From NCBI RefSeq assembly GCF_936928535.1, contig NZ_CAKZHY010000019.1, positions 1-53,773 on the forward strand: a stretch of DNA of 53,773 nt, read 5' to 3'. The position numbers and the translations under genes are program-made. Below the pieces are notes generated by a model. It made no database searches. It was not told the origin of the DNA and saw only the letters and a list, made by a program, of their open reading frames with translations. Positions 24,309-44,027 of the stretch are shown here, piece after piece. The DNA is from an uncultured Bradyrhizobium sp. (lineage in GTDB: Bacteria; Pseudomonadota; Alphaproteobacteria; Rhizobiales; Xanthobacteraceae). Numbering within the stretch: position 1 is the first letter of the stretch; the number at the start of each line of letters is the position of its first letter.

Positions 24309-26285
24309 TCAACGCCCACCGATGAGCGAACGTTCCCGCGTCGCGGCCTTCAAAGCCGCGAGATCGACCTTGGCGGCGATCTGATCGAGTGCGACGGGAA
24401 GCCGCTGCCGCCAGTTCGGGTGCTCGTCGATCGTGCCGGGTATGTTGGGTTGATCGATCACGCCGAGCAAGTCTTCCATCGACACTGCGAGCAGCCGCGA
24501 CGGTGTCCGCGACAGGAAGCCGAGCACCGAGTAGAGATCGTTGGCGTCGATCCCGTTCTGGTGCAGGATCTCGTCGAGCGCGCCGAGCGCGTCCCAGCGC
24601 GCCTGCTCGTTCTCGCCCGGATCGAGCCCGAGCGACAGCTTCATCTTCAGATCGCTGAAGGAGCGCCAGCCCGCATAGGTACAGAGATCGTGGGTGTTCA
24701 GCGTGACCAGCGCGTTCGGCCGGTAGTGGTCGGCGTTGCGGAAATGGCCGGCATCGTCGCGCTCGAACATCATGACGAGATAGGACCAGATGCCGAAATC
24801 CTGCATGGTCTCGCGGAAGCCTTCGGGCACGGTGCCGAGGTCCTCGCCAATCACGATGCATTTATGTGTCACGCTCTCGCACACGACCGCCGCCAGCAGC
24901 GCCTCGAGCGGCATCTGCACATAGGCGCCGTTATCAGGCTTGAAGCCGCGCGGCACCAGATAAAGCCGCTTCAACCCCAGCACGTGATCGAGCCTGATGG
25001 CGCCGGCATGCCGCATCGAGGCGGCCAGCATGTTGGCGAAGGGCACGAAGGATTGCGCCTCGAGGCCGCCCGCATTGAAGCCGGCAAGGCCCCAATCCTG
25101 ACCGATGGTATTGAGGACATCAGGCGGCGCGCCGACCGCGAGATGACGGGAGATCGACGTCTGCTCGTTCCAGGCATCGAAGCCGTTAGACTGCACGCCG
25201 ACGGCAACGTCGAGGTAGAGCCCGACGCGCATGCCGAGCTCGGCCGATAGCTCCTTGGCGGCGCGCAGTTGGCTATCCGCGGTCCATTGCACGAATTCGA
25301 CGAACTCGACCTCGCTCTTGTCAGGGCCGCTGCGCAAGGCCGCACATTTGGCATCGTCCGGCTGCTGCCATTCCGCCGGCCATTCCCACCACGGCGATAC
25401 CAAGCGATGGCGCAGCACCTCGAAGCAGGCAAAGCGCGAGAGCAGCGGCCCCCGCTCGGCGCGGAAGGCATCGAACTGGTTACGCCGGACACCGGTCGCT
25501 GACTTCACGAAACTGTCAAAGGCGGCGCGCAGGCCCAGCCATTTCAGCGCCGCCATGTCGGCGTAAGGGACACGATCACCTTCGCGCAGCCGCGCGGCAG
25601 TCGCGGCGGCATCCGGGATGAGGTCGACCGAATATTCGGGAATCGCCTCCACATCGATATAAAGCGGATTGAGAAACAGCCGGCTGTTCGGCGAATAGGG
25701 GCTGCAATCAGAGGGATGATCGTCGAACAGGACATGCAGCGGATTGAGCCCGACGCCGTCGGCGCCGAGCTGCTTGGCAAGCCTCACCAGGCCGGCAAGA
25801 TCGGTGAAATCGCCGATGCCCCAGTTGCGGTCCGAGCGGACGCTGTAGAGCTGCACGGCCAGCAGCCAGCCGCGATCGAACTCGCCGCCGAAGGCGCGCT
25901 CCGGCGCCACGATCATCGGCACCTCTTCGCTGGCACCCGCAGCGTCCGTCAGCGTCAGCCGGTGATAGCCGAGCGGCAGGCCGGCGGGCCAGGCGATGAC
26001 AGGCTCGCGCGTCTCGCCCTGCCCGATCACGTTAGGTTCGCCGATTTGGCTGTTGCCGGTGATCTTCCATTGCAGCGGCGCCGTGCCGACGGATGCGAGC
26101 TCGGTGCGCGGATTGCCCAACGCGCGCACCACCACGGGACCGCTGACGAAGCGATAGACCCGCTTTTCCGGCAGGGCATCGAGGATGGACCTGAGCGCCT
26201 CGGGCGCGGTGACCCGCAGCTTGCCGAGGGCATCTGTGAATTCGGACTGAACGCCCTTGATCTGGGCTTGAGCTAAAAGATCCAT
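24309..26285 (-). CDS. malQ: 4-alpha-glucanotransferase (amylomaltase)
   Basis: A 658-residue GH77 enzyme that transfers alpha-1,4-glucan chains. The catalytic residues are in IRLDHVLGLKRLYLVP (Asp nucleophile), VIGEDLGTVPEGFRE (Glu acid/base) and LNTHDLCTYAGW (Asp). The N-terminal 150 residues carry a beta-sandwich typical of the MalQ type. Upstream of its ATG is an EcfG-like site. It is divergent from the glgE-like gene and probably acts on chains cut by GlgX. Confidence 0.93.
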   Translation of the reverse strand: MDLLAQAQIKGVQSEFTDALGKLRVTAPEALRSILDALPEKRVYRFVSGPVVVRALGNPRTELASVGTAPLQWKITGNSQIGEPNVIGQGETREPVIAWPAGLPLGYHRLTLTDAAGASEEVPMIVAPERAFGGEFDRGWLLAVQLYSVRSDRNWGIGDFTDLAGLVRLAKQLGADGVGLNPLHVLFDDHPSDCSPYSPNSRLFLNPLYIDVEAIPEYSVDLIPDAAATAARLREGDRVPYADMAALKWLGLRAAFDSFVKSATGVRRNQFDAFRAERGPLLSRFACFEVLRHRLVSPWWEWPAEWQQPDDAKCAALRSGPDKSEVEFVEFVQWTADSQLRAAKELSAELGMRVGLYLDVAVGVQSNGFDAWNEQTSISRHLAVGAPPDVLNTIGQDWGLAGFNAGGLEAQSFVPFANMLAASMRHAGAIRLDHVLGLKRLYLVPRGFKPDNGAYVQMPLEALLAAVVCESVTHKCIVIGEDLGTVPEGFRETMQDFGIWSYLVMMFERDDAGHFRNADHYRPNALVTLNTHDLCTYAGWRSFSDLKMKLSLGLDPGENEQARWDALGALDEILHQNGIDANDLYSVLGFLSRTPSRLLAVSMEDLLGVIDQPNIPGTIDEHPNWRQRLPVALDQIAAKVDLAALKAATRERSLIGGR

Positions 26286-26363: not shown

Positions 26364-26398
26364 AACTCGCAAACCGCGCCTGCCGTTCCCATGGGAAC
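26364..26398 (-). promoter_or_regulatory. EcfG-like promoter of malQ with palindromic GTTCCCATGGGAAC
   Basis: On the minus strand GGAAC (26385-26389), 17 bp, AGTT (26364-26367) fits GGAAC-N17-NGTT, with the weaker first base of the -10 differing. GTTCCCATGGGAAC (26385-26398) is a perfect 14-bp palindrome, so GGAAC also faces the plus strand, but no CGTT follows in that direction. A related GTTCCC-N5-GGGAAAC occurs at 26441-26458. The 204-bp gap holds no other feature. Confidence 0.5.
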
Positions 26399-26489: not shown

Positions 26490-28448
26490 GTGAACAAGAC
26501 AATTCAAACTGTCGAGAGTGCCGCCGCCGGCAGCGCTTTCCTGATCGAAGACATCTATCCCTTGATCGATGGCGGCCGCTTCGCCGTGAAGCGGATCGCG
26601 GGCGATCGGGTCGAGGTGTGGGCCGACATCTATCGTGACGGCGATGCCAGCATCAGCGCCGCGCTGATCTGGCGCGGCGAGCAGGACCGCGAATGGCGGC
26701 GCGAGCCCATGACCCATCATGGCGACGACCGCTGGTCCGGCGCGTTCACGCCGACGGAAGCAGGCCAATATGTCTATGCCATCGAAGCCTGGACCGACGA
26801 ATTCGCCACCTGGCGCCACGGGCTCGAACGCAAGCAGCTCAGGGGCGGCGACGTCACCCTCGATGCGATCGAAGGCGCGGGCCTTTTGACCAAGGCGCAT
26901 GGCGCGGGGCAGGACGCAGCCGTCGTAATTTTCAGGCAATGCGAGGATTATCTCCAAAACGGCGACGTCGCTTCCCTCCTCGCAACCGAGCTGAGCGACG
27001 CCATGGCCGAGAGCCAGGCGCGGCCCGACCTCACCCGCTCGCCGAACTTCCCGCTTGTTGTCGACCGCGACAGGGCGCGCTTCAGCGCCTGGTATCAGAT
27101 GATGCCGCGCAGCCAGAGCCAAGACTTAAGCCAAGCCGCCGGTCACCACGGCACGCTCCGCGACTGCATCGCGCGCGTCCCCGATATCGCCGCGATGGGC
27201 TTTGACGTCCTGTATTTCACGCCGATCCACCCGATCGGCCGCACAAGCCGCAAAGGCCGGAATAATTCACCGGTGGCCGCGGAAGGCGAGCCCGGCTCGC
27301 CCTATGCGATTGGCGGCGTCGAAGGCGGGCACGATGCGCTGCATCCCGAGCTCGGCACCATCGAGGATTTCCGCGCGCTGGTTGCGACCTGCCTCGAATA
27401 CGGCCTCGAGATCGCGCTCGATTTCGCCGTGCAATGCTCGCCGGATCATCCCTGGCTGAAAGAACATCCGGAATGGTTCAAATGGCGGCCCGACCGTTCG
27501 GTTCGGACCGAGGATGGCCCCTATTCTGACATCGTCATCCCCGATTTCGCCTCCGTCGACCGCATCGGGCTGTGGAATGCCTTCCGCGACGCCATGCTGT
27601 TCTGGATCGACCATGGCGTGACCATCTTCGCGATCGACAATCACGATACCGCGCCGCTGCCGTTCTGGGAGTGGCTGATCCACGAGATCAGGCAGCGCCA
27701 TCCCGAGGTGATCCTGTTCTCGAAGACGTTTGCGCGGCCGAAGCTGATGAAAGGCCTCGCCAAGCTCGGCTTCGCGCAGTCCTTCAGCTATTTCCCGTGG
27801 CGCACAGGCAAGTGGGAGCTGGAGCAATATCTCGGTGAGCTCACGCGCTATCCGGAGCGCGACTTCTACCGGCCGAATTTCTTCGTCAACACGCCGGACC
27901 TGCTGCCCTATCATCTCCAGAGCGGCGAGGCCTGGATGTTCAAGTCACGTGTCGCACTGGCAGCAACGCTGTCAGGGAATTACGGCCTCTATAGCGGGTT
28001 CGAGCTGCTCGAGCACGAGGCCGTGCCCGGCCGCGAAGAATATCAGGATTCCGAGAAGTACGGGATCCGCCAGCGCGATTGGGACAAGGTTGGCAACATC
28101 AAGCCCTGGATCACCGCGGTCAACCGCATCCGCAACGACAACGCGGCGCTGCAGCAGACCACCCATCTGCGCTTCCTCGGCATCGAGGACGGCGAGACCA
28201 TCGCATTCGTCAAGGAGGCCATCGAACCGGCCAACGCGATCGTCGCGGCCATCGCCCTCTCGCGCCATGTGCGCGAATTCTGGTTGCCGCTCGGCGACCT
28301 CACCATCGACGTCGGCGGCGAACGCCGCCCCGTCAACGCTCTTGAAAATCTCATGACAGGCGAACAGTCCCGCATCGAATGGGGCGGGATCAAATTGCGT
28401 ATCGATCCCGACCGCGATCCGGCTCTGCTCTTCCGCTGCCTGGCGTAA
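26490..28448 (+). CDS. glgE: GlgE-like maltosyltransferase with missing catalytic residues
   Basis: A 652-residue GH13_3 (GlgE) homologue. GlgE normally transfers maltose from maltose-1-phosphate to glucan. The overall match is strong: N-terminal domain, [41 protein letters not shown] and [13 protein letters not shown] (Asp470). But the nucleophile region reads [11 protein letters not shown] instead of FRVDNPHTKP (Asp383 kept, Arg replaced by Ala381). The acid/base region reads [10 protein letters not shown] instead of LSEAFTRP (Lys412 in place of Glu). The NPPKKYQDI donor loop reads DGPYSDI (342-348). I start at GTG 26490; the frame is open to 26298 but upstream codons lack family sequence. 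No frameshift is seen, so it is not a simple pseudogene. Confidence 0.88.
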
Positions 28449-28458
28449 GGATCACGCC

Positions 28459-31400
28459 ATGAATGTACTGTCTTCCGTCGACACCAAGAAGGCCGAGGCT
28501 GCCGCGATCGCGGATGAGCTCTGGTACAAGGACGCGATCATCTACCAGCTGCACGTCAAGGCCTTTGCCGACAGCAACAATGACGGTATCGGCGATTTTG
28601 CGGGGCTGACCGAGAAGCTGCCTTATCTGCAGGATCTCGGCGTCACCGCGCTGTGGCTGCTACCGTTCTACCCTTCGCCGGGCCGCGACGATGGCTACGA
28701 CATCGGCGACTACGGCACGGTCAATCCCGATTTCGGGACGATGAAGGACTTCAAGCGCTTCATCCAGGAAGCGCAGAAGCGGGGCCTGCGCGTCATCACC
28801 GAGCTCGTCGTCAACCACACCTCCGACCAGCACAAATGGTTCAAGCGCGCGCGCCGCAGCCCGGCCGGCTCCAGCGCCCGCAACTGGTATGTCTGGAGCG
28901 ACACCGACCAGAAGTACCAGGGCACGCGGATCATCTTCACCGATACCGAGAAGTCGAACTGGACCTGGGATCCCGAGGCCGGCGCGTTCTACTGGCATCG
29001 CTTCTTCTCGCACCAGCCCGACCTCAATTTCGACAATCCGCGCGTCGTCAGCGCCATCCTCCAGGTGATGAAGCGCTGGCTGGACGCCGGCGTCGACGGC
29101 TTCCGCCTGGACGCCATTCCCTATCTCTGCGAGCGCGAGGGCACCTCGAACGAGAACCTCCCGGAGACCCATGCGATCATCAAGCGCCTGCGCCAGGAGC
29201 TGGACGCCTATTCCAAGGGAAAGCTGCTGCTGGCCGAGGCCAATCAATGGCCCGAGGACGTGCAGGAATATTTCGGCCGTGGCGACGAGTGCCACATGGC
29301 CTACCACTTCCCGCTGATGCCGCGCATCTACATGGCGATCGCGCAGGAAGACCGTTTCCCGATCACCGACATCCTGCGCCAGACGCCTGATATTCCCGCG
29401 AGCTGCCAATGGGCGCTGTTCCTGCGCAACCATGACGAGCTGACGCTGGAGATGGTCACCGACGTCGAGCGCGACTATCTCTGGACCACCTACGCCAACG
29501 ATCCCCGCGCCCGCATCAATGTCGGCATCCGCAGGCGGCTCGCGCCGCTGATGGACAACGACCGCCGCAAGATCGAGCTGATGAACTCGCTGCTGCTGTC
29601 GTTCCCGGGTACGCCGATCATCTATTACGGCGACGAGATCGGCATGGGCGACAACATCTATCTCGGCGACCGCAACGGCGTACGCACGCCGATGCAGTGG
29701 AGCCCGGACCGCAATGGCGGCTTCTCCCGCACCGATCCCGCCCGCCTCTACGCGCCGCTGATCATGGATCCCGTCTACGGCTACGAATCCGTCAACGTCG
29801 AGGCCCAGTCGCGCAGCCTGTCCTCGCTGCTGAACGCCACCAAGCGCCTGATCTCGGTGCGCAAGTCGACCCTTGCCTTCGGCCGCGGCACCATGACTTT
29901 CATCCGCCCGGCCAATCGCGCCGTGCTGGCCTATGTCCGGCAATATCGTGATGAGGTCATCCTCTGCGTCGCCAATCTGTCGCGCGCGGCGCAGGCGACC
30001 GAGCTCGATCTGTCGCCGTGGAAGGATCGCATTCCCCAGGAGATGCTCGGCCGCACGCGTTTTCCGGCAATCGGCGAATTGCCCTACATGATCACGCTGG
30101 GGCCCTATGGCTTCTACTGGTTCCAGCTCCAGGAGCGCGACAAATCCGAGCCGGTGGTGCCGCGCGCGGTGCCGGAATTCGAGACATTGGTGGTCCCAGT
30201 CAACTCGAACTGGGTGTCGCTCGCCCGCGAGCGCGGCGTCTTCGAGCGCGACGTGCTGCCGGGATTCCTGTCGCGGACGCGCTGGTATCCCGAGCACAAT
30301 CCCAAGCACATCGAAGCCGTGCTGACGTCGGCAGTGCCGTTCAGCGATATCGGCGACAACAGGCCGTGGATCGCGTTCTTCGACACGACGCAGGACGACG
30401 TCACGACGCGCTACGTGCTGCCGATGCAGATCGAATGGGTTCGTTTCGACCGCGAGCGCTTCAACCCGAAGGCGCTCGCCGCCGTGCGCCAGGGCGCACG
30501 CGAAGGCACCCTGCTCGACGTCGCCACCGACCAGATCTTCATCGGGCTGTTCCTGCGCGGCTTGTCGCAGAACCTCGTCGTGGACGAGAACAATCTGCGG
30601 CTCGAGTTCAAGCCGACAAGCCGGTTCGCGGACTACACCGTGAAGGAGCCCGCGCGCATTCGTACGGTCGAGCAGTCGAACAGCACCGCGCTGGTCGACA
30701 ATCAGTATGTCGCCAAGATCTATCGCCGGCTCGAAAGCGGCCCCAACCCCGAGATCGAAATCGGAAACTATCTCACCGAGGTCGCACGCTTCCCCAATAC
30801 ACCGGCGCTGCTCGGCAGCGTCGAACTGGTCGAGGGCACCGGCCGCTGCGCGGTCGGCGTGCTGCATGCCTATGTCGAGAACCAGGGCGACGGTTGGGCC
30901 GTCACCACGGGCTACCTCGACCGCTATATCGACGAGCAGCGGGTGCTGCCGCCGGAGGAGACGCACCGGGAGACCCAGGAGCAGGCGCCCTATCTGCACT
31001 TCGTGGCGCAGATCGGCCGTCGGCTCGCCGAGCTGCACTTGGCGCTCGCCGCCGCAAAGCCCGCCGACCTTGCCCCTGAACCGATCGGCAAATCGGACGT
31101 CAAGCGCTGGACGAGCGACCTCAAGGCACGGGCCGGACGGGTGTTCGACCGCCTCGCCGACATCAGGGACGGCCTGCGCGAAGCCGACCGGCCCTTGATC
31201 GACCAGCTGGCCGCGATGCGCGCGGCCTTGCCGGACCACATCAATGCGCTCTTGCCATCCGGCATCGGCGGGCTGAACATCCGTCATCATGGCGACTTCC
31301 GCCTTGGGCAAACTCTGATCGTGAAGGACGACATCTTCATCATCGATTTCGACGGCGATCCACACCTCACGCTGGCCGACAAGCGGCGCAAGCGGCCCGC

Positions 31401-31752
31401 CGCGCGCGATGTCGCGGGCCTGGTCCGCTCGATTGATCTTTCGGTTAACGCTGCGCTTGGCCGGGCGCTGTCGGGCGGCAGCGACGAACTGGGCCGGCTC
31501 ACGGCCGCGCTCGGCGAATGGCGCGAACATGCCACCGCGACCTTCCTGTCCGCCTATCGTGAGGCCATGACCGACCGGCGGCTCTGGCCGGAAGAGGCAC
31601 ATTCCGCGGAAAGCATGTTAAGGTTTTTTCTGCTTGATCTAGCGTTCGACGAGGTAGAGTACGAGCTGTCCCACCGGCCCGAGGGGCTCCATGCGCCGCT
31701 GACCGGCCTGCTTCGCATTCTGTCCGGTGCCGGGAGCGAAGCCCATGCCTAA
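28459..31752 (+). CDS. treS: Trehalose synthase fused to maltokinase (TreS-Pep2)
   Basis: A 1097-residue fusion. Residues about 1-560 are GH13_16 trehalose synthase, interconverting maltose and trehalose, with motifs intact: [33 protein letters not shown] and [11 protein letters not shown]. Residues about 575-1097 are a Pep2-type maltokinase, which makes maltose-1-phosphate from ATP and maltose. Its signatures are present but altered: HGDFRLGQ (near 944) where HGDYHLGQ is usual, and IDFDGDP (near 962) where IDFEGEP is usual; the catalytic Asp and the metal-binding Gln/Asp remain. The 10-bp gap to glgE and 8-bp overlap with glgB show one operon. Confidence 0.93.
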
Positions 31753-33892
31753 ACTGCCAGCCGAAGCCTATGCCATCATCGAGGGCCGCCACTCCGACCC
31801 CTTCCACTATCTCGGACTACATCCCGAGGGGGGCAAGAGCGTGGTGCGCGCGTTCCTGCCCGAAGCCTCTGATGTCGAGGCGGTCGGTGAGCATGGCGAA
31901 GTCGCGACACTCGACCGCGTCCACGCATCAGGCCTGTTCATCGGCGCCCTGCCGAACGGCTCGAAGCACTACCAGCTTCGTGCCAAATTCGGCGACAAAC
32001 TCGTCGAGTTCGAGGACGCCTACCGCTTTCCGCCGATCCTGACCGATTTCGATCTCTATCTGCTCGGCGAAGGCACGCATCAGCGGCTCTACGACAAGCT
32101 CGGCGCCCATCCGATGCGGCTGGAGGGCATCGACGGCATCGGCTTCGTCGTGCTGGCGCCGAATGCGCGGCGCGTGTCCGTGGTCGGCGATTTCAATTTC
32201 TGGGACGGGCGGCGTCATCCGATGCGGGTGCGCGGCGCCGGCTATTGGGAATTGTTCATCCCGCACGCCAAATCCGGCGATCACTACAAGTTCGAGATCA
32301 TCGGACCGCATGGCCATCTGCTGCCGCTGAAATCCGATCCGATGGCATTTGCGAGTGAAGTTCGGCCAAAGACCGCCTCCATCGTATTCGACGAGGCGCA
32401 TCTGCCGCGTCCGCGGCCGGCGCCCGACGGCATCAACGCGCTGTCGGCGCCGATGTCGATCTACGAGGTCCATCTCGGCTCGTGGCGGCGCAAGAACGGC
32501 GATGAGTGGCTGACCTATCGCGAGCTCGCCGAGCAGCTGCCGGCCTATGCCCGCGACATGGGCTTCACCCACCTCGAATTCCTGCCCGTGAGCGAGCATC
32601 CGTTCGACGGCTCCTGGGGCTACCAGCCGACCGGCCTTTATGCGCCGACCAGCCGTTTCGGCACGCCGGAGGACTTTGCCGCGCTGATCGATGCCTGCCA
32701 TCGCGAAGGCATCGGCGTGCTGCTCGACTGGGTGCCCGGACATTTCCCCGACGATCCGCACGGGCTCGGCAGCTTCGACGGCACGGCGCTGTACGAGCAC
32801 GCCAATCCGTTGCAGGGCCGCCATCTCGACTGGGGCACGCTGATCTACAATTACGGCCGCACCGAAGTGACCAACTTCCTGGTGTCGAACGCGCTGTTCT
32901 GGCTGGAGCGCTACGCCATCGACGGCCTGCGCGTCGATGCGGTCGCCTCCATGCTCTATCTCGACTACAGCCGCCCGCCCGGCGCCTGGATTCCGAACCA
33001 GTATGGCGGCCGCGAGAACATCGAGGCGATCAACTTCCTGCGCCGCTTCAACACCGAGCTGTTCGCGCGCTTCCCGCAGGCGACCACGGCCGCCGAGGAA
33101 TCCACCGCATGGCCGCAGGTGTCGCGCCCGGTCGAATTCGGCGGGCTCGGCTTCGGCTACAAGTGGAACATGGGCTGGATGCACGACACGCTGAACTACA
33201 TCAGCAAGGATCCCATCCACCGCAAGCATCATCACGGCGATATCCTGTTCGGCCTCCACTACGCGTTCTCTGAGAACTTCATCTTGCCGCTGTCGCATGA
33301 CGAGGTCGTGCACGGCAAGCGCTCGATCTTCGGCCGCATGCCAGGCGACGAATGGCAGCGCTTTGCAAACCTGCGCGCCTATTACAGCTTCATGTTCGGC
33401 CATCCCGGCAAGAAGCTGCTGTTCATGGGCGGCGAGATCGCGCAGAGCCGCGAATGGAATCACGACCAGTCGCTCGACTGGCACCTGCTCGAGTACAAAT
33501 ATCATCAGGGCGTCCAGTCGCTGGTCCGCGACCTCAACCGGCTCTATCGCGCGGTGCCGGCGCTGCATCAGATGGATTGCGACCAGGCCGGCTTCGAATG
33601 GCTTGTTACCGACGATGCCAACCGCAATGTCTTTGCCTGGCTGCGCAAGGGCTTTGACGAGCACGCGCGGTGTCTCGTGGTCGTCAACTTCTCGCCCAAC
33701 GTCTATCGCAACTATCGCGTCCCCGTGCCCTTCGCCGGCAAGTGGAAAGAGGTGTTCAATTCGGACTCCGCCCACTATGGCGGCACCAATGTCGGGAACA
33801 TCGGCGAGGTGCAAACCGTTGCCGGCAAGGCGCCCGAGCTCCGCCTCACGATTCCGCCGCTCGCCGCGATCTTCCTCGTTCCTGAAAGCTGA
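31745..33892 (+). CDS. glgB: 1,4-alpha-glucan branching enzyme
   Basis: A 715-residue GH13_9 enzyme that makes alpha-1,6 branches in glycogen. It has an N-terminal CBM48 region, then [32 protein letters not shown] (Asp nucleophile), [10 protein letters not shown] (Glu) and [12 protein letters not shown] (Asp). All catalytic residues are intact. I start at ATG 31745, eight bases inside the treS stop region; a GTG at 31727 is in frame but less likely. It sits next to GlgE-like and TreS-Pep2 as in other GlgE-pathway clusters. Confidence 0.95.
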
Positions 33893-33895
33893 CCG

Positions 33896-35974
33896 ATGCG
33901 CCTGACTGCTGGATCGCCCGCACGCCTCGGTGCAAGCTGGGACGGACGCGGCACCAACTTCGCGCTGTTTTCCGCTCACGCGCAGAAGGTCGAGCTGTGC
34001 CTGTTCGACACGCAAGGGCGCCGCGAGCTCGAGCGCATCGAGCTGCCGGAGCGCACCGAGGACGTCTGGCATGGCTATCTCAACGACGTCTCGCCGGGCC
34101 AGCTCTACGGTTATCGCGTGCACGGCCCGTACGAGCCCGAGCACGGTCACCGCTTCAACGCCAACAAGCTGCTGCTCGACCCCTACGCCAAGCGCCTTGC
34201 CGGGCGGCTGGTGTGGAGCGACGCGCACTTCGCCTACCGCACCGGCTCGGCGCGCGAGGATCTGTCGTTCGACCGGCGCGACAATGCGCGCGGCATGCCC
34301 AAGGCGGTCGTGGTCGACGAGACCTTCAACTGGGGCCGGCGCGAGATAAGGCCCAACATCCCCTGGGAAGACACCATCATCTACGAGGCCCACGTCAAGG
34401 GCCTGACCCAGAAGCGCGACGACGTGCCGCCGAATTTGCGCGGCACCTATGGCGGGCTGTCCTCGCCGGCGATGATCGAGCATCTGAAGAGGCTCGGCGT
34501 CACCACGATCGAGCTGTTGCCGGTTCACAGCTTCGTCGACGACCGTATCCTGGTCGAGAAGAAGCTCGCCAATTACTGGGGTTACAACACGCTGTCCTTC
34601 TTCGCGCCGGAGCAGCGTTACGCCCAGGACAACGCGCTCGATTCCTTCCGCACCACGGTGGCGCGCCTGCACGATGCCGGCATCGAGGTGATGCTTGACG
34701 TCGTCTACAATCACACCGCCGAGGGCAATCACCTCGGCCCGACGCTGTGCTACCGCGGCATCGACAACGCCTCCTATTACTGGCTGAACCGCGAGAACCC
34801 GCGTTATTACGACGACTTCACGGGCTGCGGCTCCTCGGTGAACCTGACCCATCCGCGCGTGCTGCAGATGGTGATGGACTCTTTGCGCTACTGGGTCGAG
34901 GTCTGCCATGTCGACGGCTTCCGCTTCGACCTCGCCACCACGCTGGCGCGCGGCCCCAATGGTTTTGATCGTGGCATCTCGTTTCTGACCGCGATCCGCC
35001 AGGATCCGGTGCTCGCCACCGTCAAGCTGGTTGCCGAACCCTGGGACCTCGGACTCGGGGGCTACCAGGTCGGCGCCTTCCCCTCGCAATGGTCAGAATG
35101 GAACGACCGCTATCGCAGCGCCATGCGCCGCTATTGGAGCGGCGAAGGCAGCCTGATCGGCGATATCTCCAGCCGCATGACGGCCTCTTCCGACCTGTTC
35201 AATCACGACGGCCGCCGGCCGCGCGCCAGCATCAACCACATCACCGTGCACGACGGTTTTACGCTGGCCGATCTCTTCAGCTACAACGAGAAACACAACG
35301 AGGCCAATGGCGAGGACAATCGCGACGGCTCCAACGACAACCACAGCAACAATTGCGGTGTCGAAGGCCCGACCGACGACCCCAACATCCTCAGCCTGCG
35401 GCGGCAGCTGCGCAAGAACGTGCTGGCCTGCCTGATGCTGGCGCAGGGCATTCCCTTGATCCTCGCCGGCGATGAGGTCGGCAACACGCAGTCCGGCAAC
35501 AACAACGCCTATTGCCAGGACAACGAAATCGGCTGGGTCGGCTGGGATAATCTCGGCAAGGACAGCGACGACATGGTCGATTTCGTCTCAGACCTCGCCG
35601 AGATCCGCAAGAAATTCTCGCAGCTGCGCAGCCATCGCTGGCTCGACGGCCGGCCGAAGGACGGCATCTCCTATGGCGCGCTATGGCTGACGCCTGAAGG
35701 CAACGAGATGACGGAGAACGACTGGACGTTCCCGGACGGGCGGTTCCTCTCTTATGTGATGGGGCCGATGGAACCGGGCAGCGCGGCGATCTTTATCGTA
35801 CTGAACGCCGCCCCCGAAGAGATCGCATTCAAATTGCCAAAAATGCCCGAATACAAGAGCTGGCAGCAGATCCTGAATACGACGGATGCCAAGCTGACCA
35901 GCGTTGATTTCATGCCCGGAAGCGACAGCAAGGCGCCGCCGCGCTCCGTGCTCGCCTTCGCGGGGGCGCTATGA
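33896..35974 (+). CDS. glgX: Glycogen debranching enzyme (GlgX, GH13_11)
   Basis: A 692-residue enzyme hydrolysing alpha-1,6 branches of limit-dextrin chains. N-terminal CBM48 (SWDGRGTNFALFSAHAQKVE), then DVVYNHTAEGNHLGP, DGFRFDLATTLAR (Asp), LVAEPWDLG (Glu) and ITVHDGFTLADL (Asp). It starts 3 bp after glgB and overlaps treZ by 4 bp. The debranched chains it makes are the substrates for TreY. Confidence 0.95.
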   Translation: MRLTAGSPARLGASWDGRGTNFALFSAHAQKVELCLFDTQGRRELERIELPERTEDVWHGYLNDVSPGQLYGYRVHGPYEPEHGHRFNANKLLLDPYAKRLAGRLVWSDAHFAYRTGSAREDLSFDRRDNARGMPKAVVVDETFNWGRREIRPNIPWEDTIIYEAHVKGLTQKRDDVPPNLRGTYGGLSSPAMIEHLKRLGVTTIELLPVHSFVDDRILVEKKLANYWGYNTLSFFAPEQRYAQDNALDSFRTTVARLHDAGIEVMLDVVYNHTAEGNHLGPTLCYRGIDNASYYWLNRENPRYYDDFTGCGSSVNLTHPRVLQMVMDSLRYWVEVCHVDGFRFDLATTLARGPNGFDRGISFLTAIRQDPVLATVKLVAEPWDLGLGGYQVGAFPSQWSEWNDRYRSAMRRYWSGEGSLIGDISSRMTASSDLFNHDGRRPRASINHITVHDGFTLADLFSYNEKHNEANGEDNRDGSNDNHSNNCGVEGPTDDPNILSLRRQLRKNVLACLMLAQGIPLILAGDEVGNTQSGNNNAYCQDNEIGWVGWDNLGKDSDDMVDFVSDLAEIRKKFSQLRSHRWLDGRPKDGISYGALWLTPEGNEMTENDWTFPDGRFLSYVMGPMEPGSAAIFIVLNAAPEEIAFKLPKMPEYKSWQQILNTTDAKLTSVDFMPGSDSKAPPRSVLAFAGAL

Positions 35975-37725
35975 GGCCATCCTTTGGGGCGAAGCCGACC
36001 AAGGACGGCGTGTCGTTCCGCTTGTGGGCGCCCGGCGCGCGCCGCATCGATCTGCTGCTCGCGCGGCGCCACGCGATGCAGCGCCGGCAAGACGGCTGGT
36101 ATGTCGCCGAGATCGCCGGCCTCACCGCTGGCAGCCCCTACAAGTTCAGGATCGACGACGAGATCGACGTGCCCGATCCGGCGTCCGCCTTCCAGCCCGA
36201 GGATGTGTTCGGCCCGAGCGAGGTGATCGACCACGACGCCTTTGCATGGCGCGCGAAGGATTGGCGCGGCCGCCCCTGGGAAGAGACGGTGCTGATCGAG
36301 ACCCATGTCGGCACGTTCACGCGCGAGGGCACTTATCGCGCCATGATCGACAAGCTCGATCATCTGGTCACATCAGGCATCACCGCGTTGGAGCTGATGC
36401 CGCTGGCGGATTTCGCCGGCCGCCGCGGCTGGGGCTATGACGGCGTGCTCTGGTACGCGCCCGATAGCGCCTATGGCCGTCCGGAAGACCTGAAGACGCT
36501 GATCGACGAGGCCCATCTGCGCGGGCTGATGGTCTTCCTCGACGTCGTCTACAATCACTTCGGTCCCGAGGGAAACTATCTCGGCCGCTACGCGCCGACC
36601 TTTTTCACCGACGCGCATACGCCCTGGGGCAGCGCGATCGACTATCGCGTGCCGCAGGTGCGCGCCTTCGCTGTCGAGAACGCGCTGTCCTGGCTGACCG
36701 ACTACCGCTTCGACGGCCTCAGACTGGATGCCGCCAACCACATCATCGCGATCCCCGGCGAGCAGTCGATGCTGCACGACCTCAGCGTCGCCACCGGCGA
36801 ACTCGCCAAGGCCACCGGGCGGCACATTCATCTGGTGCTGGAGAATGGCGACAACCGCGCCAGCCTGCTCGACGCCGCGCAGGAGCCGCCGAGCGGCAAA
36901 TATCGCGGACAATGGAACGACGATTATCATCACGTCTGGCACGTGATGCTGACCGGCGAGCTCAACGGCTACTACGCCGACTACCAGACCCCGCGCATGG
37001 ATCTCGCCCGCGCGCTCGCCTCCGGCTTCGTCTACCAGGGCGAGATCTCGGAATTCTGGGGCAAGAAGCCACGCGGCGAGGCCAGTGGCGAGCTGCCACC
37101 GGCGACCTTCGTCAATTTCCTGCAGAACCACGACCAGATCGGCAACCGCCCTCTCGGCGACCGGCTGGAGAGCCTGGCATCGCCCGAGCAGATCGAGGCC
37201 GCGCTCGCAGTGACGTTGCTCGCGCCGATGGTGCCGATGCTGTTTCAGGGCGAGGAATGGGGCTCGAAGATGCCCTTCCCGTTCTTCTGCGATTTCCAGG
37301 GTGGCCTCGCCGACGCTGTGCGCAACGGGCGCAAGCAGGAATATGCCTGGGCCTACGCGAAATACGGTGACGAAGTGCCCGATCCGCTCGATCCGGCCAC
37401 GCCGCAATCAGCCGTGCTGGACTGGGCCGGCCGCACGCCCGAACAGGACGCACGGCTGGCGCTGGTGCGCGATCTCCTCGCGGTTCGCCGCAAGGAGATC
37501 ATGCCGCGGCTGAAGGGCGCGCGGTTCGGCGATGCCGAGGCTGAAGACAACGGCCTGCTCACGGCGCATTGGCGCATGGGCGATGGCACTCAACTGCGGC
37601 TCACCGCCAATCTGTCGGACAAGCATATCGCGCATTCCAACAACGATGCAGGCACGCCGATCTGGGGCGGCGCGGCCGGCGAGCGACTCCCACCCTGGTC
37701 GGTGGTCTGGCATCTCGGAGGTTAG
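35971..37725 (+). CDS. treZ: Malto-oligosyltrehalose trehalohydrolase
   Basis: A 584-residue GH13_10 enzyme releasing trehalose from maltooligosyl trehalose. N-terminal CBM48-like domain (GAKPTKDGVSFRLWAPGARR), then FLDVVYNHFGPEGNYLG, FDGLRLDAANHI (Asp), HLVLENGDNRAS (Glu) and FLQNHDQIGNRPLGDR (Asp). The start overlaps glgX by ATGA, and treY starts 2 bp after the stop. It works in the same two-step pathway as TreY. Confidence 0.94.
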   Translation: MRPSFGAKPTKDGVSFRLWAPGARRIDLLLARRHAMQRRQDGWYVAEIAGLTAGSPYKFRIDDEIDVPDPASAFQPEDVFGPSEVIDHDAFAWRAKDWRGRPWEETVLIETHVGTFTREGTYRAMIDKLDHLVTSGITALELMPLADFAGRRGWGYDGVLWYAPDSAYGRPEDLKTLIDEAHLRGLMVFLDVVYNHFGPEGNYLGRYAPTFFTDAHTPWGSAIDYRVPQVRAFAVENALSWLTDYRFDGLRLDAANHIIAIPGEQSMLHDLSVATGELAKATGRHIHLVLENGDNRASLLDAAQEPPSGKYRGQWNDDYHHVWHVMLTGELNGYYADYQTPRMDLARALASGFVYQGEISEFWGKKPRGEASGELPPATFVNFLQNHDQIGNRPLGDRLESLASPEQIEAALAVTLLAPMVPMLFQGEEWGSKMPFPFFCDFQGGLADAVRNGRKQEYAWAYAKYGDEVPDPLDPATPQSAVLDWAGRTPEQDARLALVRDLLAVRRKEIMPRLKGARFGDAEAEDNGLLTAHWRMGDGTQLRLTANLSDKHIAHSNNDAGTPIWGGAAGERLPPWSVVWHLGG

Positions 37726-37727
37726 TC

Positions 37728-40511
<2,784 letters not shown>

Positions 40512-41307: not shown

Positions 41308-43971
41308 CTACTTCACCTTCCCCGCCAACTTCTTTATCGCCGCCTTGATCGACGAGGCCGCATCGTCATAGCCCTCCCAGGCCTTCGACCGTGCCAGCAG
41401 GCCCGGCACCGTGCGTACCGTGTAGCGCTTCGGATCGAGATCGCTTTTCACTTGCGCCCAGGTCAGCGGCATCGACACCGTCGCGCCATCGCGCGCGCGT
41501 GGCGACAGCGGGCCCACCGCCGTCGACATGCGGTCATTGCGCAGATAATCGAGGAAGATCTTCCCGTTGCGCAGTTTCTTCGACATGTTGAGCAGGTAGC
41601 GTTCGGGATCGTCATCAGCCATCCACTGGCAGACGCCTTGCGCGAACGCCTTGGCTTCCTTCCAGTCCACCTTGTCGCGCGCGCCATGGAGCAGCGGGAC
41701 CACCACGTGCAGGCCCTTGCCGCCGGTGGTCTTGCAGAAGCTTTCCATGCCAACGTCAGTCAGCCGCTGTCGCATCTCCTTCGCTGCTTCGACGACATCG
41801 GCGAACGTCACGTCCGGTGCCGGATCGAGGTCGAATACCAGCCGGCCCGGCGTGTCATAGGCATCCGGCGCGCAATTCCAGGGATGCAGTTCGACGCCGC
41901 CGATCTGCGCGACCGCGGCGAGCCCCTCGACGCGGTCGATCTGCAAATACGGCTTGCGATCCCCGGAGACCTTTGCGAGCTCGAGCAGGTTCGAGGTGCC
42001 CTGCATCGCATGGCGCTGGAAGAATTTTTCGCCGCCGATGCCGTCAGGGGCACGAAGGATCGAGCAGGGGCGGCCCTTGAGATGCTCGATCATCCAAGCG
42101 CCGACCGCCTCGAAATAGCGCGCAAGATCGAGCTTGGTGACGCCCTCGCCGTCGCCACCGTCGGGCCAGAGCTCCTTGTCTGGCTTTGAGATGACGACGC
42201 CCATCACTTCGGCTGTGCCGGCGCTCTTCGACTTGGCCGTCTTCGGTGTCGCGCGCTTCCTCGCCGAGGGCTTTGCCAGTTCGATATCGACAGGCGTTTC
42301 AGCCTCGACCTCCTCGGCCGGCTTATCCTGCCGCAGGCCCTTGAAGGCAGCCTGACGGATATTGCCGTCGGCCGTGAAGCCGGCGAACTCGATCTCCGCG
42401 ACCAGCTCGGGCTTCAGCCAATGCACGTCACGCGTCTTCTTCGGCGCATTCTTGCCGCCGAACGGGCTTTCCCTGGCCTCCATCGCTTTGAGCGACGGCA
42501 TGATGCGCTTGACCTTGTCGGCGCCAAAGCCGGTCCCGACCATGCCGACAAAGGCGAGATGGTCGCCCCGATGCACACCCGCCATCAGCGAGCGGAATTT
42601 TCCTGATGTCGTCTTCCAGCCGCCGATCACGACCTCATGGCCCGCCCGGCATTTTGCCTTGGTCCAGCTCTCGGTGCGGCCGGAGCGATAGGGCGCGTCC
42701 AGCTTCTTCGACACCACGCCCTCGAGCTCGAGCTTGCAGGCCGATTGCAGCACCGCCTCGCCCCCGCTCTCGAAATGCTCGACATAGCGGATCTGGCTCG
42801 TCTTCTTCTTGCGCGCTCCCAGCAACTTCTTGAGGCGTTCCTTGCGCTCGCCGAGCGGCAGACGGCGATAATCGAGGCCCTCGGCGAACAGCAGGTCGAA
42901 GGCGAAGAAGATCAGGTCTTCGGTCTTGCCATCCGACAGAGCGGCCTGCAGGGAGGAAAAGTTCGGCGCACCGTTATGGTCGAGTGCGACGATCTCGCCG
43001 TCGATCAACGCATCAGGCAGGTCACCCGCCTCCTTGGCGATCGATGCGAACTTTTCGGTCCAGTCGAGGCCCTTGCGGGTCTTCAAGCTCGCCTCGCCGT
43101 CCTCGATGCGCAGCTGGACGCGGTAGCCGTCGAACTTGATCTCATGGCACCAGCCGTCTGACCCGGGCGGCCGCTCCACGGGAGTGCACAGCTGCGGCTC
43201 CACGAAATCAGGCATCGCCGAGACTTTCTTGGCTGTCGTCGCGGTCGTCGCCTTCTTCTTCGACGGTTTGCCGCTCTTCAGCGCCGTGCGAGGCGCCGGC
43301 TTGACCGTGCGCCCTTTGGTCTCCTCGGCACGGTTGGATTGCCAGACCGCATCCGCCTTGCCTTTGGCGCCCTTCTCCAGCATGAACGGCTTCGGCGCGC
43401 GGCCCTTGCCGCCGGCGATCTGATCCATGGCGCGGCCAGATGCCACGGACTTGTCTTCCGCCAAGATATCCTCGTCCTCGCTGGCATAGTCGTCGCGGTG
43501 CTTGATCAGCAGCCAGTTGGTGCGCTTCTCGCCGCCGCGGTTGCGCATGCGCACCAGCACCCAGCTGCCATGCAGCTTGTCGCCATGCAGGGTGAATTTG
43601 AGGTCGCCCTTTTTGAAGCCGGCTTCGGCGTTATCGGATTCCCAGGTGCCGCGGTCCCACAGCATTACCGTGCCGCCGCCATATTGCCCCTCGGGAATCG
43701 TGCCTTCGAAATCGCCATAGTCGAGCGGATGGTCCTCGACTTCGACGGCCAGCCGCTTGTCGTGCGGATTGAGCGAGGGGCCCTTGGTCACCGCCCAGGA
43801 CTTGAACACGCCATCGAATTCAAGCCTGAGGTCGTAGTGCAGCCGGGTCGCATCGTGTTTCTGGATCACGAAGCGCCGCTGCTTCGATGGCGCCACGGCG
43901 GACTTGCCTGACGGTTCGGGCGTCTTTTCGAAATCACGCTTCTTTCGATAAGTGGAGAGTTTTTGCAGCAC
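41308..43971 (-). CDS. ligD: ATP-dependent DNA ligase D
   Basis: About 887 residues, a bacterial NHEJ ligase with all three domains. The order is 3'-phosphoesterase ([20 protein letters not shown], near residue 35), ligase (adenylation Lys in [12 protein letters not shown], near 276) and primase-polymerase ([26 protein letters not shown]). It joins double-strand breaks with Ku. GTG 43971 follows GGGA by six bases; a GTG at 43983 is in frame but too close to AGAGGA. The divergent gene is ku, with overlapping EcfG-like sites between them. Confidence 0.95.
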
Positions 43972-44027
43972 GACTGGTCCCACATCCTCTAATCGCGTTG
44001 AAGCCTATCACGGCAAAAGTCCCATCC

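Follow-up and report, generated by a model that had tools for sequence, protein, structure and literature searches.

Does the GlgE-type protein encoded at this Bradyrhizobium locus still act as a maltosyltransferase and, if it does not, why is its gene still there? The window, by which we mean the whole stretch of 53,773 nucleotides that was analysed, holds the gene in the following setting:

24309..26285, minus strand: malQ, 4-alpha-glucanotransferase, divergent
26490..28448, plus strand: glgE-type gene for an altered GlgE (PF11896, the GlgE N/S domain, at 177.8 bits, plus a full-length match to solved GlgEs); GTG 26490 is the probable start, and an upstream ATG at 26391 gives a 685-residue reading
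28459..30123, plus strand: TreS (trehalose-maltose isomerase) part of a TreS-Mak fusion (TIGR02456, 908.7 bits; catalytic motifs intact)
30136..31749, plus strand: Mak (maltokinase) part of the fusion, altered (TIGR02457, 622.4 bits)
31745..33892, plus strand: glgB, branching enzyme
33896..35974, plus strand: glgX, debranching enzyme
35971..40511, plus strand, shared with glgE: treZ then treY (maltodextrin to trehalose)

Among the best 80 of 549 loci and as far as the contigs reach, the order glgE, treS-mak, glgB, glgX with a divergent malQ is common to the Bradyrhizobium loci except L050 and L066. Past the trehalose genes, a gene for DNA ligase D (non-homologous end joining) lies on the minus strand at 41311-43983.

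NCBIfam gave weak GH13 matches for the window protein, and its identity was decided by the GlgE N/S model and by PDB matches. Indeed, as the earlier note had proposed, it aligns with GlgE along its length, the best partner among the solved GlgEs being 5cgm (E 6.4e-137). It has both the GlgE N/S domain and the GlgE fold, and a loss of the fold was rejected. The sites of interest are, in the 685-residue reading from ATG 26391:

27513..27530, plus strand: DGPYSD (375-380) for the donor loop NPPKKYxD, with Asn352 changed to Gly and three residues gone (alignment)
27630..27647, plus strand: A-I-D-N-H-D for R-V-D-N-P-H (alignment to solved GlgEs and homologue clusters)
27723..27725, plus strand: Lys445 for the acid/base Glu423 (alignment to solved GlgEs and homologue clusters)
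27798..27803, plus strand: Trp470-Arg471, the retained acceptor-site pair, equivalent to Trp448 and Arg449 of S. coelicolor GlgE

Ala414 (27630-27632) stands opposite Arg392, two residues before the nucleophile (Arg392 being assigned by position, in S. coelicolor numbering). The nucleophile itself is retained as Asp416 (27636-27638, opposite Asp394 in the alignment to solved GlgEs), and the third Asp, Asp480, as Asp503 (27897-27899). The earlier note had called all of these correctly (as Ala381, Asp383 and Asp470, its numbers being 33 lower), together with Lys412 at the acid/base position and the replacement of NPPKKYQD by DGPYSD; it had overlooked the changes of Pro396 to His and of His397 to Asp. 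In PMC5076824 and PMC7805345, Asp394, Glu423, Asn352, Gln324, His397, Trp448 and Arg449 of S. coelicolor GlgE are named, the acceptor-site roles of Trp448 and Arg449 in PMC5076824. Lys264, Asn268, Gln324, Asn395, Trp448, Arg449 and Asp480 are all retained in the window protein, and a search inside the aligned catalytic motifs for a neighbouring Arg or Glu that might substitute found none. The window GlgE is without the catalytic and donor-loop residues, and most of its sugar contacts are still there. Of the two outcomes foreseen by the earlier note, a dead enzyme or a new reaction, the former, in the sense of a protein dead as a maltosyltransferase, is well supported by the sequence, in which Arg, Glu and loop are gone; the latter gained no positive support.

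The adjacent maltokinase, whose change the earlier note had missed, as it had the repeated occurrence of such changes in the genus, is altered at the following sites (numbering of M. vanbaalenii Mak, 4u94):

31300..31302, plus strand: Arg948 for the maltose-pocket His307 (HGDFRLGQ)
31351..31359, plus strand: D-G-D (965-967) for E-G-E of the DFEGEP motif
31639..31650, plus strand: Leu1061 and Asp1064 for Lys413 and Tyr416 of the maltose site (alignment to 4u94)

In the maltose site of the window Mak, Arg, Leu and Asp take the places of His307, Lys413 and Tyr416, respectively, with Tyr420 retained, and Tyr416 is gone in 35/35 rows of the window clade. The kinase core is retained (P-loop Ser136, Lys149, Asp305 of HGD, Gln310 and Asp322), and two residues are missing ahead of the P-loop; in the clade as a whole, 2 of the 35 rows have Ala and one has Thr at position 136. 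According to PMC4306142, His307 belongs to the probable maltose pocket, Mak activity is practically abolished when Lys413, Tyr416 or Tyr420 is mutated, mutation of Ser136 costs 97% of it and the change of Tyr416 to Phe causes a drastic loss, and in M. tuberculosis Mak an Asp to Asn change at the Asp322 equivalent causes complete loss. Among the best 80 of 549 loci, a GlgE with Lys at the acid/base position always lies beside a Mak with HGD(F/L)RLGQ and DFDG(D/N), not HGD(F/L)HLGQ and DFEGE, and the TreS motifs are unchanged wherever they were read. As read from the residues, TreS and GlgB have intact motifs or models, and Mak and GlgE lack needed residues; the window genome would not encode the full four-activity GlgE pathway (TreS, Mak, GlgE, GlgB). 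The earlier statement that frame and operon position are intact does not extend to an intact GlgE pathway, since the donor-making kinase is altered too.

How widespread are these changes? Homologue clusters were scored for the best 120 of 8,000 matches to the window protein, and Lys occupies the acid/base position in 117 of them. In these Lys-type clusters Ala replaces Arg392 in 115, His replaces Pro396 in 116 and Asp replaces His397 in 115, while the nucleophile Asp (115, missing in P0066 and P0115), the third Asp (117), Lys264 (116), Gln324 (115), Trp448 (116) and Arg449 (106) stay. The canonical remainder of the best 120 (P0117, P0119 and P0120) is 70-72% identical to the window protein. 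Clusters named B. japonicum (P0015) and B. diazoefficiens (P0086) among the matches listed carry the altered residues, and database pipelines still label many family members maltosyltransferase. The closest named relatives among these matches being Bradyrhizobium, this was taken as the genus to survey. The altered motif F-[A/T]-x-D-N-H-D occurs in 114 of its 242 genomes, and sequencing error, which the earlier note had wanted checked, was rejected on this ground; with Lys in 117 of the 120 listed clusters, the altered residues are due neither to chance nor to error.

The canonical motif R-x-D-N-P-H was found in 64/242 genomes, and the kinase motifs HGDxRLGQ and HGDxHLGQ in 120/242 and 82/242, respectively. 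HGDxRLGQ accompanies the altered GlgE motif in 114/114 genomes, with HGDxHLGQ and the canonical GlgE motif each in 0/114. HGDxHLGQ is present in 61 of the 64 canonical-motif genomes, the three others being G157, with an altered loop and kinase, and two incomplete genomes without a TreS-Mak match; G068 has the canonical motif plus an HGDxRLGQ match that lies on a contig stretch without operon genes. When the remaining 64 genomes were probed with canonical GlgE, 12 gave a match and 52 did not, six of the latter having less than 90% completeness or more than 5% contamination. Four of the 12 (G008, G026, G154 and G161) are of the window type with a variant motif, which brings the window-type GlgE to 118/242, plus one genome with a truncated copy: G229, which belongs to the window clade and whose GlgE is reduced to an N-terminal piece. 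The nucleophile Asp is gone in 3 of the 118 (G008, G026 and G161). A further kinase form, DFDGGPG, occurs in 31/242 genomes, or 28 once the off-operon matches of G053, G159 and G195 are set aside; 27 of these 28 are counted within the 64 canonical-motif genomes because this type keeps Arg and Asp, and its GlgE loop is HPPQ in 6/6 loci read. The fusion is present in 38 of 41 genomes probed with TreS-Mak, and in 35/35 of those with a completeness of 90% or more and no more than 5% contamination. That 52/242 genomes have no GlgE match means that the GlgE remnant is dispensable in the genus.

At the level of single loci, the states of GlgE and Mak are concordant in 128/128 loci with a TreS-Mak match over more than 88% of its length in one frame: 40 are canonical in both, 88 combine an altered or absent GlgE with an altered Mak, and none is mixed. 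L152 (a duplicate of L115), L066 and L071 are absent from these 128 rows, and L004 and L052 (TreS-Mak split) and L050 and L166 (without the fusion) are examples of other loci outside them. L014, L072 and L076 were scored canonical by hand though their GlgE match covers less than 88% of its length, and L134 (G157) was scored altered by hand, which its loop HPPQTW, its Mak QAH and its His307 to Asn change confirmed. The eleven Mak positions used were picked partly with the data already known; when the comparison was repeated with three published-mutant positions, Ser136, Asp322 or Tyr416 was missing in 88/88 altered and 0/40 canonical loci, Thr occurring at position 136 in 3 of the 40.

The damage differs between lineages. 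In that of the window, GlgE R392A and E423K go with loss of the Mak maltose site; elsewhere the loop HPPQ goes with Mak S136P, N137H and E326G, D394K with Mak D322G, and D394T/E423G with a changed Mak P-loop and E324A, and where glgE is absent, Mak has P-loop, HGD or DFE changes. In the HPPQ type the Arg, Asp and Glu of GlgE are intact but Mak is damaged, which fits a kinase that failed first. On trees of the TreS protein and of TreS plus glgB DNA (69/112 rows have glgB), we counted about seven changes per trait, at least five of them on well-supported (starred) branches in the latter tree. The window type forms one clade (100*), G229 included, and its sister is the canonical L009 (99*). Independent pairs on starred branches were concordant in 5/5 cases (sign test, p 0.0625). 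The association is strict, yet few independent events stand behind it.

A single ancestral loss for the genus was rejected, as canonical copies are interspersed among the altered lineages and the sister of the window clade, L009, is canonical. Nor did the gene neighbourhood support the import of a foreign pseudoenzyme, since canonical and altered relatives share the same neighbouring genes. Some Bradyrhizobium have a second type of locus, with a canonical GlgE, a kinase-like gene unfused to TreS and glgX on the opposite strand:

L050, 7932-11506: second-type locus
L066, 7995-11527: second-type locus
L166, 2543-8427: second-type locus, in genome G109

Such a locus may be a regained pathway. G109, where a canonical Mak stands with a GlgE split over two frames, is a possible exception to the coupling, outside the 128 rows.

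Does selection still act on the altered pair? A column counted as switched if canonical rows show at least 95% conservation there and the window clade is fixed, to at least 85%, for something different. Switched columns amount to 22/150 in the catalytic part of GlgE and 7/75 in Mak, against 0/28 in the GlgE N/S domains, 0/291 in TreS and 0/237 in GlgB; they concentrate in two active sites, those of GlgE and Mak. Omega was estimated as a single ratio, with neither intervals nor likelihood-ratio tests, on selected subsets: 14 of the 35 rows of the window type (glgB being present in 10 of the 14), eight canonical rows, six of the HPPQ type and eight glgE-less ones. For the window type versus the canonical rows it was 0.105 versus 0.080 in GlgE, 0.121 versus 0.091 in Mak, 0.019 versus 0.042 in TreS and 0.044 versus 0.074 in GlgB; HPPQ-type GlgE gave 0.126. 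Purifying selection on the GlgE and Mak of the window clade persists, which answers for GlgE the dN/dS question raised by the earlier note. The altered proteins evolve somewhat faster, and the glgE/glgB ratio of omega (2.4 in the window type, 1.1 in canonical rows) fits a partial decay. Inside the window clade, pN/pS in GlgE is 0.193 for changed columns, 0.277 for columns variable in canonical rows and 0.044 for still-conserved ones; the altered site does not drift freely, but its constraint is weaker than formerly. With its catalytic residues gone and selection on the protein continuing, the window GlgE would qualify as a pseudoenzyme. In glgE-less genomes (for example L102-L105 and L123), the Mak half has an omega of 0.077 (8 rows), and this purifying selection despite changed P-loop and DFE residues suggests a structural role of Mak for TreS.

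Elsewhere in the window genome (7.5 Mb, scored 100% complete) a second, functional GlgE was sought and rejected, the GlgE match being the only one and the canonical motif being absent from all 114 motif-bearing genomes. Two GlgA genes are present, one adjoining GlgC, so that the classical glycogen route is encoded. The other GlgA gene (G000:C96; L107 8301-9713) has no GlgC among the neighbours scanned, and two more TreS-like GH13 genes lie adjacent on opposite strands at G000:C94 (L106 7755-11535), both without a Mak domain. Of 317 genomes sampled across the order, 68 have a GlgE at E up to 1e-60; R-x-D-N-P-H is kept in 59/59 GlgE-bearing genomes outside the genus, the seven GlgE genomes without it all belong to the genus, and no altered GlgE was seen outside it in this sample. 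One open frame of 1,199 residues (L070 6381-9977) fuses a domain like PF14701, the glucanotransferase part of glycogen debranching enzyme, to the GlgE N-terminus, and open frames of about 1,100 residues around GlgE recur in further families of the order.

Altogether, the reading that we consider the more probable one is that maltose-1-phosphate is most likely neither made nor used any longer by the window pair, and that the GlgE-type protein likely stays on as a partner that binds alpha-glucan without catalysis. Taken by themselves, the loss of GlgE and Mak activity is highly probable, and the glucan-binding role is a tentative proposal, made because the sugar-contact residues are retained and the N/S domains have no switched column. 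The branch from trehalose through maltose and maltose-1-phosphate to glycogen may have lost its value in Bradyrhizobium, where glycogen would be available via GlgC-GlgA and trehalose via other routes. PMC5042117 describes a S. venezuelae glgE null mutant that accumulates maltose-1-phosphate, a defect unseen in the pep2 mutant, and PMC7805345 describes the same accumulation in M. smegmatis when GlgE is lost with a functional kinase. As maltose-1-phosphate harms cells unable to use it, kinase and transferase would have had to go together, the kinase being lost first or simultaneously with the transferase. A joint loss avoids this cost, and the observed pattern matches. TreS, GlgB, GlgX, TreZ and TreY were retained, and TreS would then serve as a trehalose-maltose isomerase that, with no kinase pull, only equilibrates both sugars. 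These sequences are best read as the joint closure of both steps of the maltose-1-phosphate branch.

That the remnant persists because it binds glucan without catalysis is, with moderate confidence, its best account, and decay is the main rival: both proteins would be dead and useless, and would survive only on account of the clade's youth and of the position of glgE between a promoter and useful genes. The truncated GlgE of G229 within the window clade, the 52/242 genomes with no GlgE match, the higher pN/pS of changed than of still-conserved columns and an omega above that of canonical GlgE all speak for decay. We nonetheless hold it to be unlikely, given an omega of about 0.105 over 14 rows, a motif or full copy in 118/119 genomes of the type, and new residues that are nearly fixed (His in 116, Asp in 115 and Ala in 115 of the 117 listed Lys-type clusters). 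The preferred reading has a difficulty of its own, as the nucleophile Asp (115/117 listed clusters) and most ATP/Mg residues of Mak are retained, which leaves some room for another reaction.

This retention, the near fixation of the new GlgE motif and the joint change of both donor sites would suit a rebuilt pair, in which Mak would act on a different sugar and the altered GlgE would use the phosphorylated product as its donor, by another chemistry that involves the retained Asp together with the newly acquired His, Asp and Lys. We regard such a pair as quite improbable: the nucleophile is gone in G008, G026, G161, P0066 and P0115, the acid/base residue is Lys in 117/117 of the listed Lys-type clusters, and other lineages lose both activities through unrelated mutations or deletion, a pattern that loss explains better than a new function does. 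It is hardly credible that the protein still works on maltose-1-phosphate with other residues substituting, even though its fold and operon are unchanged and pipelines name many members maltosyltransferase. Indeed, the Glu423 mutation abolishes the activity of S. coelicolor GlgE (PMC5076824), the aligned motifs offer no Arg or Glu, the kinase that makes the donor is altered as well, and all 59 GlgE genomes outside the genus in the order-wide sample keep R-x-D-N-P-H. A more speculative reading, and a rather improbable one, is a regulatory pair, in which a TreS-fused pseudokinase sensing ATP and a silent GlgE clamping glycogen chain ends would set the direction of the trehalose-maltose-glycogen exchange. 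If this were true, the genus would offer a natural experiment run several times over, with a toxic intermediate driving two pathway enzymes either to die or to change trade together.

The closure of the branch as a unit, which we prefer, would matter for the way these bacteria are described. Annotation and at least one paper credit Bradyrhizobium, a genus from soil and root nodules that nodulates soybean, with a functional GlgE pathway, which looks closed in most of the genus. PMC8084333 credits B. japonicum with "a complete glgE operon" and considers its desiccation tolerance as perhaps an alpha-glucan phenotype for that reason; closure bears on this remark, and desiccation and trehalose phenotypes in Bradyrhizobium could not be assigned to GlgE-made glucan without proof. 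As cited in PMC8092242, earlier work found trehalose up and maltose down in a B. diazoefficiens treS mutant, compared with the wild type. Being strict and having arisen several times through different mutations, the coupling would be non-actinobacterial, evolutionary evidence for the cost of unused maltose-1-phosphate, the idea that underlies GlgE as a tuberculosis drug target. The titles and abstract openings listed from an open-licence PMC library gave no report of an inactive GlgE or of GlgE/Mak coupling, and no paper linking GlgE with the term "pseudoenzyme" came up there.

Compared with known systems, the solved GlgEs (S. coelicolor GlgE1 3zss and 4cn4, M. tuberculosis 4u33, M. thermoresistibile 5cgm) are alpha-1,4-glucan:maltose-1-phosphate maltosyltransferases, whereas the window protein has neither the GH13 Arg nor the acid/base Glu nor the donor loop, has His397 replaced and stands beside an altered maltokinase. 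With mycobacterial Mak/Pep2 (4u94, 4o7o), which is fused to TreS in many other bacteria, the window kinase shares the P-loop, Lys149, HGD, Gln310 and Asp322, but His307, Lys413 and Tyr416 are replaced, Glu324 and Glu326 are Asp, and two residues fewer precede the P-loop. The sister lineages L009 (a groundwater Bradyrhizobium MAG), Rhodopseudomonas, Tardiphaga and Nitrobacter have the same gene cluster, with a 59-70% identical GlgE, and in them, unlike in the window, the active sites of GlgE and Mak are both intact. Catalytically silent relatives of GH13 enzymes include the heavy chains of animal amino acid transporters, which have an amylase-type fold without catalytic residues. While these heavy chains are animal membrane proteins, the window GlgE is bacterial, belongs to a glycogen operon and would have lost its function alongside its partner kinase.
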